Shown piece by piece: positions 9,005 through 17,747 of a DNA stretch of 27,492 bases; position 1 is the stretch's first letter; the number at the start of each line of letters is the position of its first letter. The notes beneath the pieces are model-generated. The model saw nothing but the letters and a program-made list of their open reading frames with translations, was not told where the DNA came from and did not search any database. The position numbers and the translations under genes were made by a program. This DNA comes from a virus. The DNA lies in the IMG/VR virus record IMGVR_UViG_3300025154_000335, positions 1 through 27,492 of that record; one strand, written 5' to 3'.

Positions 9005-9502
9005 ATGCCAGAATTTGAGTCTCGCCAAAAAATGTCAGTATCTGCAAAAAAACGTTGTACTCCCGAATGGAGAAAAGCTACGTCAGAAAAGTTCAGGACA
9101 AAGATTGATGACATGAAACTGGCAGAGTTGTACTCCAGCGGCATGACGCAAGATGAATGTGCCGCTACATTGGGTGTGTCTAGGAAAGTGGTTGCTAACG
9201 CTATGAAGAGGTTAGGAATTAAACCCAGGGTGGCGGCAAAGCGCAACCAAACTGGGCCAGATAACCACATGTGGAAAGGGTCGGCAGCTAATTTGGTTTG
9301 CAAGCACAAGCGTTTGTATAGAGCGTTTGGCCAGCCAGAAAGATGTGATGTTTGCGGCACCACAGATAGTTCCAAAACGTATGATTGGGCAAACTTGACA
9401 GGGGATTATGATAACCCCGCTGATTACAGGAGGATGTGCAGATCATGCCACGCTCAGTACGACAACAAAATAGTGAATTTGCTAGGAAGGAAGGAGGTTT
9501 AA
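9005..9502 (+). CDS. HNH homing-type endonuclease with HTH
   Basis: A 165-residue protein. The middle holds a helix-turn-helix (YSSGMTQDECAATLGVSRKV). The C-terminal HNH nuclease has CDVC, the YDWANLTG core, and CRSCH closing the zinc site. ATG 9005 follows AACAAGGGGG. The gene has its own promoter and sits exactly at motif I of the methyltransferase gene, which is disrupted upstream and restarted downstream. That is the behaviour expected of a free-standing homing endonuclease that targets a conserved codon stretch. The stop at 9500-9502 abuts ATG 9503. Confidence 0.85.
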   Translation: MPEFESRQKMSVSAKKRCTPEWRKATSEKFRTKIDDMKLAELYSSGMTQDECAATLGVSRKVVANAMKRLGIKPRVAAKRNQTGPDNHMWKGSAANLVCKHKRLYRAFGQPERCDVCGTTDSSKTYDWANLTGDYDNPADYRRMCRSCHAQYDNKIVNLLGRKEV

Positions 9503-10227
9503 ATGAGTTGGCACTTTTCGCGGGCGCTGGTGGAGGCGTATTGGGCGGAAAACTCCTCGGATGGCGCACAGTCTGTGCCGTCGAGCAAGAGCCCTATGCC
9601 GCTAGCATACTTATGCAGCGACAGAATGACGGCATTCTCGACCCGTTCCCTGTCTGGGATGACGTTTGCACCTTTGACGGAAAGCCTTGGCGCGGATGTG
9701 TTGACGTGGTTTCTGGCGGGTTTCCCTGCCAGGATATCAGCGCCATGGGTAAAGGTGCAGGACTCGACGGAGAGCGTTCAGGGCTTTGGGGCGAAATGCA
9801 GCGGATCATTAGCGAAGTTCGACCCGCATACGTCTTCGTGGAAAATTCACCAGCGCTCACTATTCGGGGGGGAGTACGAGTCATTGCAGACCTTGCCTAC
9901 CTGGGGTATGTGGGAAAATGGGGAGTTATTGGGGCCGGTGACATTGGAGCTTCGCACCAAAGGGACAGAATGTGGATTGTGGCATCCGACACCAGTAAGA
10001 ATGGATTACAAGGGGGCGAACTTCAGAGGCGAAAAACAAAGGGAAAGCCAACTAAAAGAATGGCTCCATGTCCGATTTTCCCAAGGCATGAAGACGACTT
10101 ATCCCCACCCTTTGTTCTTGGAGCAGGTAATGGGATGGCCGATAGGGTGGACCGAACTAAAGCCATTGGCAATGGGCAGGTTCCAGCAGTGGCTGCGCTC
10201 GCATGGAGGACGCTAACATGCAACTAA
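9445..10227 (+). CDS. C5-cytosine DNA methyltransferase (Dcm-like)
   Basis: Up to 260 residues with the C5-methyltransferase motifs in order: I (FAGAGGG, 25-31), IV (GGFPCQDIS, catalytic Cys95), VI (VENS, 132-135), VIII (QRDRMWIVA, 172-180) and X (IGNGQVP). The segment between VIII and X is short, so the target-recognition domain is small. It transfers a methyl group from SAM to cytosine C5, probably to protect phage DNA. The start is uncertain: ATG 9445 lies inside the HNH gene with AGGAGG 11 bases upstream, and TTG 9508 lies 10 bases after AAGGAGG. The best-placed ATG nearby (9503) is in another frame and begins a different long reading frame across the same DNA. Confidence 0.85.
   Translation: MPRSVRQQNSEFARKEGGLNELALFAGAGGGVLGGKLLGWRTVCAVEQEPYAASILMQRQNDGILDPFPVWDDVCTFDGKPWRGCVDVVSGGFPCQDISAMGKGAGLDGERSGLWGEMQRIISEVRPAYVFVENSPALTIRGGVRVIADLAYLGYVGKWGVIGAGDIGASHQRDRMWIVASDTSKNGLQGGELQRRKTKGKPTKRMAPCPIFPRHEDDLSPPFVLGAGNGMADRVDRTKAIGNGQVPAVAALAWRTLTCN
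9503..10216 (+). CDS. Antiphase reading frame over the methyltransferase (possible overprinted gene)
   Basis: A 237-residue frame, shifted +1 from the methyltransferase and lying wholly within it. It has the best start signals of the region: AAGGAGG (9491-9497), five bases, then ATG immediately after the HNH stop. The product begins MSWHFSRALVEAY, has a DPHTSSWKIHQRSLFGG block and ends MGWPIGWTELKPL...RFQQWL. I recall phage proteins annotated with the same beginning and end, so this frame may be kept across phages. It could be a real overprinted protein, or an echo of conserved codons with the ribosome site actually serving the methyltransferase. No catalytic motif is visible. Confidence 0.45.
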   Translation: MSWHFSRALVEAYWAENSSDGAQSVPSSKSPMPLAYLCSDRMTAFSTRSLSGMTFAPLTESLGADVLTWFLAGFPARISAPWVKVQDSTESVQGFGAKCSGSLAKFDPHTSSWKIHQRSLFGGEYESLQTLPTWGMWENGELLGPVTLELRTKGTECGLWHPTPVRMDYKGANFRGEKQRESQLKEWLHVRFSQGMKTTYPHPLFLEQVMGWPIGWTELKPLAMGRFQQWLRSHGGR

Positions 10228-10486: not shown

Positions 10487-10714
10487 TTGAACGAATGTCC
10501 AAGGTGTAGAGGCGCTGGCAAAGTAAACACTGAGGCCGAAAACGGAGAACTGGGGGAGAGTTTGAAGCGACAGCGTGAAAAGCTCGGCATCTCACTAAGA
10601 GCCGTCGCCCGTCACATGTGCAAATCACCGACATACCTTTCTAGGCTAGAACATGGGCGCGAAAGGTGGAACCCAGAACTGGAAAGAGCGTACCGCGATG
10701 CAATCAGCCAGTAA
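10487..10714 (+). CDS. XRE-type HTH regulator with N-terminal Cys motif
   Basis: A 75-residue protein from TTG 10487, six bases after AAGGAGG; no ATG has a comparable site. It opens with CPRCRGAG, a half zinc-finger like the DnaJ repeat. An XRE HTH domain follows (ESLKRQREKLGISLRAVA...SPTYLSRLEHGRE). It overlaps the fusion gene by 17 bases and shares its promoter, so it probably regulates that cassette, perhaps by acting on 10427-10456. Confidence 0.8.
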   Translation: MNECPRCRGAGKVNTEAENGELGESLKRQREKLGISLRAVARHMCKSPTYLSRLEHGRERWNPELERAYRDAISQ

Positions 10715-13013
10715 AAAAGACCAGCTCTCTTTTTTTGAAGATTGCCCCGGAGCAAAAAGGTATCGGCCACTTCTTACCGTTGCCGAAAACTTTAAAGGAG
10801 TTTTAGACGTTGACACGGTAAAGGGCTGTAGCCTTGGAATGGCAGCGTATCCAGATGGGGGGTGTTACGGTGAATGTTACGCCAACAAAATTGCGTCAAG
10901 GTATGGAATTGATTTTACCACAAGCGTGTCAAGGAAACCAAGCCGCCGACATTTTGCCGACAGTTTCCAAGCTGTAAAAAGACACCCCGCCGCATGGTAC
11001 AGGATCGGGACGGCTGGCGATCCCTGCCACGATTGGGACAACACTCTTTCGGTGTGTGAGGCGTTGCAAGGTACAGGCAAAACACCGGTCATTATCACTA
11101 AGCACTGGTTGCCACTTTTGGACAGCCACATAGTGCGGTTGCAAAAGCTTTCAGCGGTTGTAAATACCTCCACAAGCGGAATGGACAGCGATAGCGAAAT
11201 AGCTCACCGTGTGGGGCAAATGACGCGGCTGGAATCGGCGGGGGTGCAAAGCGTGAACAGGGTTGTTACTTGTGAGTACGGGGTGTCTGATTGGGCTAGA
11301 AGCTGCCATGACAAGCAACGATATTTGCTATCGCTTGGGAAGGTAATTGACAACCCTCTAAGAGCAAGCAGCGCCAACAAGAGAGTAATAAACGGGGATA
11401 TAGTCGTAACAAGAAAAGATGAATCAATAGGTGGGGGGAAGTTTGTTTCGTTACACCGGCCAAATGTTTACCTGGGCTGTTGCAAAAGCTGTCCAGACCA
11501 ATGTGGCGTTAACCGATCGGCATTAAAATTACATAGCGAAAAAAGGAGAGGGGAACAAATGAGCGAAATACAGGGGATTCTATTTGGCCACGAACCGAAA
11601 CACAAAGTCACCGTTCCAAGGGCCAACAAGGTAATAGCACCGCCGCATCAAAACGTAGAATACCTGTACGTCAAAAGCGTTATAGGGTCCGGTTACGAGG
11701 CAGATGTGGCGCAATTAGCTATAGAGGATAAGATAGCTTATCGTGCGGCCCGCAAAAACATGCAGATTCATTCTGCAATCATCCTCAAAATAGACGGCGA
11801 GTTTTGCGGGTTTTTCACGTTCCAAAACAACGAGGAAGTCGGGGAGTTTTGCCTGTTGCAATCGACCATAAGGCCGGACCGGTTCAACTTTGACATTTAC
11901 GACAACATGGTCAAAGCGATCATAGCCCAGAATACCAAGGGCTACCCGATGATAATTACCACTGATCCGAAGAGCAAGTTTGAAACTCCCAAGCGGTTTA
12001 AAAGCCTTGGGTTCAAGACTTACCTCACCATGTCTGGGTACGAGTACATGGTGTACGGCGACGAAAAGGATGTGAGAATGAAACTTCTTGCTCACATCAC
12101 CATGACAAACGTGTGGAACTCGCTTAAAGGTGATTGGTTGCGTCTCAAAAAGGAATGGAACGCACAGATTGAAGCGGCTGGGGAAAAGTACAATATTCCC
12201 AACCCTAAATTTGCTTCCCGTGAAGGGTGCTGGCAGGGGGAAAGCGGTTTTTCTAACGTGGTCCTTTCGACCCATACCGTGGAAGACGGAGAGATCAAGA
12301 CCGACAAAGTGAAGTCTCACAACGGCAACGCTTCTGTGTTGGACCCCGTAGCCTGTGAGGTGATCCTCCGGTTCTTCATGCCTAAAAATGGCCGGTACGT
12401 GTACAACCCTTTTGGCGGCGGGGTACAGATGGGTTTTGTTGCCGGTGCGTATGGGTATGACTACGTTTCCAGCGAGATCAGGCAAAACCAGTGCGACACC
12501 AACAATGCTATTTGCCAGGACTTGAATAGCGCAAAATGGATCAAAAGCGACAGCTCTACTTATACCCCCGAAAACCGCCCCGATCTGGTTTTCAGTTGCC
12601 CCCCCTATTACAAGGTGGAAAAGTACATCGATTACGACGGCAAATCACCAGCTGGGGAGATTAACTCCATCGACACCTACGAGGGTTTTAGAAATACCCT
12701 TTTTGCCGGTTACAAAAAGGCCATTGAAGCCTTAAATGATAACTGCTTTTTTGTGGTGATGACCGGAGACAGCCGGGACAAAAACGGGTCGTATCATTGC
12801 CACGAATCCGAGACAGAGATATTTTTCAAGGAACAGGGCTTGTCGGTCTACAACAAAATAATCTACCTTGAATGCGAGTTTACGCGGCTTGCACAAGCTA
12901 AAAAGACGCTGAACTACCGCAAATTCCCCAAGCGTGAGCAGAAAATCATAGTTGCATACAAGGGTGATCCCACGCTTATCAAAGACCTGTTCCCACCCAC
13001 CGGGAGGCTATAA
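10698..13013 (+). CDS. Radical-SAM-like / GNAT (Mom-like) / DNA methyltransferase-like fusion
   Basis: A 771-residue protein with three parts. Residues 1-285: a radical-SAM-like region with Cys44, Cys56 and Cys60 in a GGCYGECYA context, plus a second Cys group (CCKSCPDQC, 261-269) for an auxiliary cluster; it recalls phage Gp37/Gp68 or gp88 proteins. Residues about 315-455: a GNAT-type fold (ILKIDGEFCGFFTF, then FKSLGF) resembling Mom-like acyltransferases. Residues about 540-755: an amino-methyltransferase-like domain with motif I as NPFGGG (570-575, Asn replacing the usual Asp) and motif IV SCPPYY (633-638). It probably makes a complex DNA base, perhaps on adenine N6 or cytosine N4. ATG 10698 is chosen; ATG 10653 lies inside the regulator gene. 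The chemistry is inferred. Confidence 0.75.
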   Translation: MQSASKKDQLSFFEDCPGAKRYRPLLTVAENFKGVLDVDTVKGCSLGMAAYPDGGCYGECYANKIASRYGIDFTTSVSRKPSRRHFADSFQAVKRHPAAWYRIGTAGDPCHDWDNTLSVCEALQGTGKTPVIITKHWLPLLDSHIVRLQKLSAVVNTSTSGMDSDSEIAHRVGQMTRLESAGVQSVNRVVTCEYGVSDWARSCHDKQRYLLSLGKVIDNPLRASSANKRVINGDIVVTRKDESIGGGKFVSLHRPNVYLGCCKSCPDQCGVNRSALKLHSEKRRGEQMSEIQGILFGHEPKHKVTVPRANKVIAPPHQNVEYLYVKSVIGSGYEADVAQLAIEDKIAYRAARKNMQIHSAIILKIDGEFCGFFTFQNNEEVGEFCLLQSTIRPDRFNFDIYDNMVKAIIAQNTKGYPMIITTDPKSKFETPKRFKSLGFKTYLTMSGYEYMVYGDEKDVRMKLLAHITMTNVWNSLKGDWLRLKKEWNAQIEAAGEKYNIPNPKFASREGCWQGESGFSNVVLSTHTVEDGEIKTDKVKSHNGNASVLDPVACEVILRFFMPKNGRYVYNPFGGGVQMGFVAGAYGYDYVSSEIRQNQCDTNNAICQDLNSAKWIKSDSSTYTPENRPDLVFSCPPYYKVEKYIDYDGKSPAGEINSIDTYEGFRNTLFAGYKKAIEALNDNCFFVVMTGDSRDKNGSYHCHESETEIFFKEQGLSVYNKIIYLECEFTRLAQAKKTLNYRKFPKREQKIIVAYKGDPTLIKDLFPPTGRL
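11543..11561 (+). promoter_or_regulatory. Internal SD and in-frame ATG inside the fusion gene
   Basis: AAGGAGAGGGG (from 11543) precedes an in-frame ATG at 11559, codon 288. The site falls exactly at the border between the radical-SAM-like part and the GNAT part, and would give a separate 484-residue GNAT-methyltransferase protein. Confidence 0.6.
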
Positions 13014-16810: not shown

Positions 16811-17025
16811 TGGTTAAGCATGAGGTGCTAGATCAAGAGGTGTGGGAATGCTCGGATGAGGAAATCCGCCGCTTATGGCCGGAGACGCCGCCAGAGGACA
16901 GGTACAAGCTGTGGAGCAATAGCGAATATACCTCGCACATTCTAGACGACCCCGCCCAGGTGCGGGCGTGCTTGTCGCGGAAAAGGGCGCAGCCAGGGCG
17001 TTTGCAAACCAAGGAGAGCAAATGA
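16810..17025 (+). CDS. Small hypothetical protein
   Basis: Seventy-one residues from ATG 16810, which shares one base with the helicase stop; GGGGGG lies upstream. Acidic start, basic end (LSRKRAQPGRLQTKESK). Coupled at both ends, by a 4-bp overlap downstream. No family recognised. Confidence 0.6.
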   Translation: MVKHEVLDQEVWECSDEEIRRLWPETPPEDRYKLWSNSEYTSHILDDPAQVRACLSRKRAQPGRLQTKESK

Positions 17026-17747
17026 TTGCATATCACGGTACACCATGCGGGGCGACTCGACCCGATGCAGCACGTTTTCTTAGAAGCCGTCACGCGCTGG
17101 TTTCATACGCCAACCCCGAAGATATGCCGATAGTGGCTGATGCCTGTGCATCCTTCGTTTTGGACAACGGAGCTTTTACCATGTGGCGCGGCGGCAAAAC
17201 CCCTGATTGGGACGCCTACCTTAAATGGGTGCAGCATTGGTCTAAACACCCCGGCTTTGATTGGTGGCTTATTCCTGACGTGATTGGCGGCACCGAAGAT
17301 GAAAACCGCTGTCTCAACTTTCAGTATGGCCGTAAAGCGCCTTACGGCGTCCCGGTATATCATCTGCATGAGTCGCTAGAGTACGCCGCACAATTGGCCG
17401 AAACCTGGCCGCGTGTGGCTATAGGTTCAAGTGGTGAATGGCCGAACCCCGGCACACAATCATGGTGGAACCGGATGGGCGAAGTCATGGCGGCGATGTG
17501 TGACAGCAAGGGGCGGCCTAAATGCAAACTGCATGGGCTGCGGATGTTGGACCCGCTGATATTTTCCCGGCTCCCGTTATCGTCTGCTGACTCTTGCAAC
17601 GCCACTATCAACAGTGGTTCACTGTCCCGATTTGGAATGTACGTCCCACCGACTGCAAGTCAGAGGGCCGAGGTTATCGCGGCAAGGATTGAGTCGCACA
17701 ACAGCGCGGCGGTTTGGGATCAACCGCAAATGTCCCTGGCAATCTAA
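17022..17747 (+). CDS. TGT/DpdA-like TIM-barrel protein (possible DNA deazaguanine transferase)
   Basis: A 241-residue protein from ATG 17022 (AAGGAGA upstream, ATGA overlap). Conserved-looking blocks follow in the order of tRNA-guanine-transglycosylase-like barrels: FVLDNGAFT (Asp48), WWLIPDVIGG (Asp86), VYHLHESLE, VAIGSSGEW, KLHGLRMLDP and SADS (Asp190). Phage proteins with these blocks are commonly seen beside DNA-modification genes. DpdA members swap guanine for a 7-deazaguanine base in DNA. No preQ0 synthesis genes (queC/D/E, folE) are in this window, so the base would come from the host or genes outside. Assignment to the exact DpdA branch is by eye. Confidence 0.6.
   Translation: MIAYHGTPCGATRPDAARFLRSRHALVSYANPEDMPIVADACASFVLDNGAFTMWRGGKTPDWDAYLKWVQHWSKHPGFDWWLIPDVIGGTEDENRCLNFQYGRKAPYGVPVYHLHESLEYAAQLAETWPRVAIGSSGEWPNPGTQSWWNRMGEVMAAMCDSKGRPKCKLHGLRMLDPLIFSRLPLSSADSCNATINSGSLSRFGMYVPPTASQRAEVIAARIESHNSAAVWDQPQMSLAI

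Follow-up and report, generated by a model that had tools for sequence, protein, structure and literature searches.

A virus gene fusing radical SAM-like, GNAT-fold and DNA methyltransferase-like domains, a probable DNA base hypermodification enzyme

A conserved three-domain gene

What does a virus gain from joining, in a single protein, a radical SAM-like domain, an acyltransferase-type domain and a DNA methyltransferase (MTase)-like domain? The question is raised by a gene of a bacterial virus in an IMG/VR record (IMGVR_UViG_3300025154_000335), of which positions 1 to 27,492, the window, were analyzed. The gene occupies 10698–13013 on the plus strand, where the frame is open from the ATG at 10698, with a GGAAAG-like ribosome site immediately 5' of it, to the stop codon at 13011–13013 and encodes 771 amino acids; an alternative in-frame ATG upstream, at 10653, gives a product of 786 amino acids. 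This is a real, conserved gene rather than a chance frame, because 78 distinct loci with relatives, 58–100% identical across most of the length and with conserved motifs, were found in a scan of viral contigs.

Mapping of these relatives resolves two units, A (residues ~20–272) and B (residues ~318–771), which are either fused or encoded by two genes that may stand in either order. Where the units are separate genes, the end of A and the start of B both map to the region that forms the A/B junction of the fusion (11523–11654, plus strand). Conservation is far higher in B, which is 63–88% identical to the window protein, than in A (28–71%).

Direct searches recognized the last third of the protein. 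A PDB sequence search with the whole fusion gave no match, the matches in PHROGs (phrog_12517 and phrog_498) fall on the MTase-like third, and no credible relatives of the A or GNAT domains were found among 50,697 phage records. The sole Pfam match of the fusion is PF01555 (N6_N4_Mtase), below its cut-off, a match that would suit simple protective DNA methylation, with the MTase alone catalytic and with A and the GNAT domain serving as degenerate accessory or DNA-binding modules. We consider this explanation very improbable, in view of three features of the other domains described below.

A radical SAM fold with two cysteine triads

Domain A (residues ~16–275; 10743–11522, plus strand) was modeled with AF2 at pLDDT 88 and pTM 0.85, from an alignment that, like the one used for B, is shallow. 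The model contains the partial TIM barrel of the radical SAM superfamily, and the top of the list from a Foldseek search of the PDB with it consists almost exclusively of radical SAM enzymes, with EpeE, PFL-activating enzyme, QueE and HydE as the top matches (best E-value 6.9e-4, probability 1.00), at modest TM-scores of about 0.36–0.44 by query length. Judging from the model, A has a radical SAM fold, with Fe-S binding and SAM cleavage as putative activities.

The cysteines of A form two triads. The first (C44, C56 and C60, in C-x11-C-x3-C-Y-A; 10827–10877, plus strand) comprises the putative [4Fe-4S] ligands, and the second (C262, C265 and C269, in C-x2-C-x3-C-G; 11475–11507, plus strand) is a putative auxiliary cluster or metal site. 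All six are invariant across the 34 A domains of alignment A2, which argues against a degenerate module. In place of the textbook CxxxCxxC cluster motif, A has three conserved cysteines with another, unusual spacing, C-x(9-11, sometimes 18-25)-C-x3-C among the A genes; of 118 A genes, 111 carry the second triad pattern. The SPASM family gave no match in six of the virus records, so the C-terminal triad is not a recognized SPASM domain.

At the sequence level, two relatives of A matched DUF5131 weakly (best E-value 0.001), and PDB profile searches with A produced no credible match. Radical SAM proteins of the DUF5131 and PF04055 families share with A the partial TIM barrel and the Cys-Tyr-Ala that includes the last cluster cysteine, whereas the C-x11-C-x3-C spacing and the C-terminal triad set A apart. 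A pentatricopeptide match to the A2 profile (2.1e-5) was rejected, given that no single stretch was significant alone and that the match contradicts the AF2 model. At one locus (L016:6001-6900), gene A carries an in-frame stop codon at a Tyr position inside the Cys motif, with B intact, an apparent case of decay, error or recoding.

A GNAT fold with neither a CoA motif nor a detectable sequence relation to Mom

The middle domain (residues ~320–453; 11655–12056, plus strand) adopts the canonical GNAT topology, b1-a1-a2-b2-b3-b4-a3-b5-a4-b6-b7, in the AF2 model of B (m2bb93be20692; pLDDT 76.6), where this order of strands and helices is followed by a Rossmann MTase. In a search of BFVD, a viral structure library, with B, an uncharacterized full-length phage protein (67% identity) ranked first and GNAT proteins came next, the NAT_SF/GNAT matches of the middle domain reaching E-values of ~1e-5. 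One relative (L164) gave a weak match to PF13302 (E-value 0.079), and no credible match came from PDB profile searches with the domain. The CoA-binding motif Q/RxxGxG/A is present in none of 137 B proteins. Many residues of the domain are invariant in the B alignment, again at odds with a degenerate accessory role. The GNAT and MTase domains are connected by a helical linker (TNVWN...NPKFASREGCWQG; 12065–12329, plus strand) delineated by invariant columns of B alignment A1.

The preliminary description of the gene, made from the sequence alone, had called this domain Mom-like. The label is not supported by sequence, as profile-profile comparison (hhalign) with ten Mom homologues detected no relation (probability 0.1, E-value 0.55). 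Mom of phage Mu (PDB 8bv8) resembles the domain in its GNAT-type fold, its DNA modification context and the absence of Q/RxxGxG/A (0/10 in Mom), an absence that amounts to only a loose resemblance; unlike in the fusion, radical SAM and MTase domains are missing from Mom.

For the radical SAM and GNAT domains together, the nearest precedent in mechanism is, by analogy, Elp3, which combines radical SAM and KAT/GNAT domains in one chain, has a wide-spaced Cys motif and makes carboxymethyl-uridine (cm5U) in tRNA. Among the proteins described here, only the fused forms share with Elp3 the order of radical SAM then GNAT within one chain. Elp3 has no MTase domain, whereas the GNAT domain of the fusion has no CoA motif; Elp3 is absent among the 50 Foldseek matches listed for A, and no sequence match to it was found.

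An amino-methyltransferase relative with an altered motif I

The C-terminal domain (residues ~545–771; 12330–13010, plus strand) matches phrog_12517 (1.3e-37) and phrog_498 (3e-36), and a profile built from it and its relatives matches the modification methylase 2zie (2.3e-13), an m4C MTase and CcrM. With this clear profile homology, the domain is, by sequence, a relative of the DNA N4/N6 amino-MTases, with motif I followed by motif IV, an order permuted relative to the beta class. Motif IV, for which (D/N/S)PP(Y/F/W) is the usual form, starts with Cys (SCPPYY, 12594–12611, plus strand; [T/S/A/M/C]CPPYY in 137 of 140 B genes). Motif I is YNPFGGG (12402–12422, plus strand), with its Asn at residue 570; the longer form YNPFGGGVQ occurs in 136 of the 140 B genes, and a further one has FNPFGGGVQ. 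The preliminary description had pointed to Asn in place of the usual Asp in this motif, and the alignments bear this out: Asn is invariant in B, and the sampled relatives mostly have Asp. Likewise, its proposal of a three-part chain held, in that a radical SAM fold (A), the GNAT topology (middle domain) and a DNA amino-MTase relative lie in one frame.

Among the closest known proteins are the ParB-MTase proteins of phrog_498 and phrog_12517 (Listeria phage B054 gp77, Mycobacterium phage Vincenzo gp1, Enterococcus phage phiFL3A gp36), which, at about 23–36% identity, share with B the MTase-like domain, the CPPY motif IV and the order I then IV. They differ in having an N-terminal ParB-like domain in place of GNAT and, mostly, DPFAGG as motif I, and no radical SAM partner was seen adjacent to them.

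The PDB structure matches of the B model are MTases, and aTrm11, a tRNA m2G10 MTase, is among the better-superposed Foldseek ones. Together with the radical SAM and GNAT combination characteristic of Elp3, this match raises the alternative that phages have recruited an Elp3-like enzyme to modify RNA, with tRNA or mRNA as the target. We regard such a role as quite improbable, because the sequence of the MTase domain best matches DNA modification methylases and its relatives include the ParB-MTase proteins, several of which are encoded near terminase genes.

Near-obligate pairing with radical SAM partners

Uncultured viruses, along with a few bacterial contigs, supplied the 140 relatives of B. 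In this non-redundant set, a radical SAM partner is fused or adjacent in 136 cases, namely, 50 fused, 19 with A followed by B, 49 with B followed by A and 18 with B followed by a different gene, A' (the remainder are three with too little flanking sequence and one without a partner); the loci were retrieved by bait, so these counts are not abundances. Since the 78-locus scan had employed both A and B patterns, a separate count was made with B-family bait only, and of the resulting 87 loci, 83 encode the partner (31 fused, 9 A then B, 33 B then A, 10 B then A'), three are on short contigs and one lacks it. The median gap is 3 bp when A or A' follows B.

A' was identified at loci seemingly without A, where the gene directly after B encodes YGCGCQHDCSYCYAK and matches PF04055 (Radical_SAM). 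Its Cys motif is GCGCQHDCSYCYAK; three of four A' genes tested scored above the PF04055 cut-off and the fourth just below, and the profile alignment of A with A' is weak (E-value 0.0016, probability only 16%). A' is a canonical PF04055 radical SAM protein, apparently a distant relative of A, and replaces A in 18 loci. This independent replacement is the third feature that argues against simple methylation.

A tree built with FastTree from 132 B proteins requires 30 changes of arrangement; branches with good support alone account for at least 10 changes in the fused state and at least 9 in the identity of the partner, A or A'. With the arrangement altered so often (about 30 times) and the partner hardly ever missing, the coupling is functional rather than the product of chance fusion. 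The near-obligate pairing, maintained through repeated fusion and separation, reversals of gene order and exchange of the partner, is strong evidence of a joint function. Besides A and A', no gene recurs next to B in more than 10 of 63 loci.

An exception is locus L096 from Riemerella columbipharyngis, which encodes a B-like protein with a different GNAT and lacks any match to A or A' in its genome, so radical chemistry would not be needed in every member. Seven relatives lie on bacterial contigs; the six other than that of Riemerella belong to Smithella, Desulfobacterales, Desulfobacula, a Spirochaete, Massilibacteroides and one further bacterium, which we take to be largely anaerobic lineages, in keeping with an oxygen-sensitive cluster. 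The Riemerella locus itself (L096:1481-7323) consists of three overlapping genes, for an 889-aa Cas9-like HNH protein, a SNF2 helicase and an LPG-synthase-like GNAT fused to the same MTase family, and is a possible modification-linked nuclease module; searches of viral contigs with exact patterns found no Cas9-like relatives.

DNA modification genes around the partners and in the window

When A' occurs without B, a ParB-family cluster gene is found nearby in 41 of 65 loci. The annotated A' loci encode ParB_N, ParB_N-MTase, a second radical SAM protein, SAM synthetase and a Vut_1/YhhQ-type transporter, and in one of them (L182) a TET-associated DNA glycosyltransferase is fused to the second radical SAM domain. 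At L334, A shows a similar association: its neighbors encode a ParB-like protein and a second radical SAM protein, of the PF04055 family. These neighborhoods of the partner, with A and A' beside ParB and DNA-modification genes around A', make likely the role in base hypermodification put forward in the preliminary description and further weigh against an RNA target. Several phage loci that combine A', ParB_N, a second radical SAM gene, SAM synthetase and YhhQ/DpdA-like genes (L182:5624-7717, L172:4848-7214, L138:4846-6859 and L135) appear to be rich hypermodification neighborhoods.

Elsewhere in the window, the virus carries genes for an m5C MTase (9436–10227; PF00145, 1e-27) and for a DpdA/queuine tRNA-ribosyltransferase-like protein (16968–17747, GTG start; phrog_887, 1.5e-60), the latter suggesting deazaguanine in the viral DNA. 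Given these two genes, the virus probably modifies its own DNA in several ways. The m5C MTase frame is overlapped by a second frame (9503–10216), itself with matches to the phage MTase families phrog_1008 and phrog_35493; these are either overlapping genes or the result of a frameshift.

Sister methyltransferases and SAM-derived groups

Among relatives of the MTase domain from cultured sources, the adjacent gene encodes SAM decarboxylase (PF02675) in Croceibacter phage P2559S, Pseudomonas phage ZRG1 and Borrelia turcica lp27, and a PLP enzyme in Mycobacterium phage Vincenzo. In 80 further viral loci, the decarboxylase is near 72 of the 78 MTases in which motif I ends in '..GD' and near neither of the two with '..GG' (the decarboxylase-linked sister MTases are at loci L342, L343 and L351-L431). 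This association suggests, without proving, that the family is able to move aminopropyl or other SAM-derived, non-methyl groups, makes the '..GD' loci a candidate DNA aminopropylation system, and renders a changed chemistry of the MTase domain in B, which the preliminary description had raised, plausible.

Such a capacity would also fit an altered donor, whereby radical SAM and GNAT make a modified SAM or an acylated SAM-derived group and the NPFGGG MTase domain, in a single step, transfers this non-methyl group to DNA. We judge this route rather unlikely. To our knowledge, no radical SAM enzyme makes a modified SAM for transfer to DNA, and the GNAT domain is tied to the MTase chain, whereas the radical SAM gene is often separate. 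On the other side, motif I differs by branch ('..GD' with SAM decarboxylase, DPFAGG in the ParB-type relatives, YNPFGGG in B with radical SAM), and the use of a non-methyl SAM derivative on phage DNA is established for CmoX, which employs carboxy-SAM (PMC12783734). The CmoA/CmoX/CmoY carboxymethylcytosine system resembles the fusion in that a phage MTase-fold enzyme has tailoring partners and ParB genes nearby, and differs in that the enzyme is a C5-cytosine MTase homologue with an SPPC motif, and radical SAM and GNAT are lacking (PMC12783734).

A probable route to a new DNA base

We consider it fairly probable that the gene, as two genes or one chain, is a self-contained DNA base hypermodification enzyme. 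This reading draws on the three domains, the near-obligate radical SAM pairing and the partner swap between two radical SAM families, as well as on the neighborhoods of A and A', the kinship with DNA N4/N6 MTases, the decarboxylase-linked sister branch, and the m5C MTase and DpdA-like genes in the window. Conversely, the GNAT domain without the usual CoA loop, the Riemerella protein without A or A', and the fact that A is not especially close to Elp3 count against it, and the substrate could instead be RNA or protein.

Under the hypermodification reading, the MTase-fold domain would bind phage DNA, flip out the target base, probably adenine or cytosine, act on its exocyclic amine and attach an alkyl group supplied by SAM or by a derivative of it. 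The carbon radical generated by the radical SAM domain would lie on this alkyl group, on the base itself or on an acyl group bound to GNAT, and the GNAT domain would acylate or condense the product; the resulting bulky base may shield phage DNA from host nucleases. A more specific version, possible but less likely, is a widespread Elp3-like DNA machine in which radical SAM and GNAT build a new carbon or acyl group directly on a base held by the MTase fold, within a branch of the MTase family that swaps methyl for other SAM-derived groups.

We found no description of this system in open-access papers that link radical SAM enzymes to Mom, ParB or GNAT proteins or to aminopropyl DNA, although it may have been mentioned earlier elsewhere. 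Phage DNA hypermodification is a continuing source of new nucleotide chemistry, and in the present case a radical enzyme is locked together with the folds of an acyltransferase and a DNA-MTase. Because about 140 relatives keep these parts side by side, the fusion probably adds an undescribed decoration to the bases of viral DNA. These findings suggest that a common phage MTase family carries groups other than methyl, and the fused form offers a compact, one-gene system in which to seek a new DNA base.
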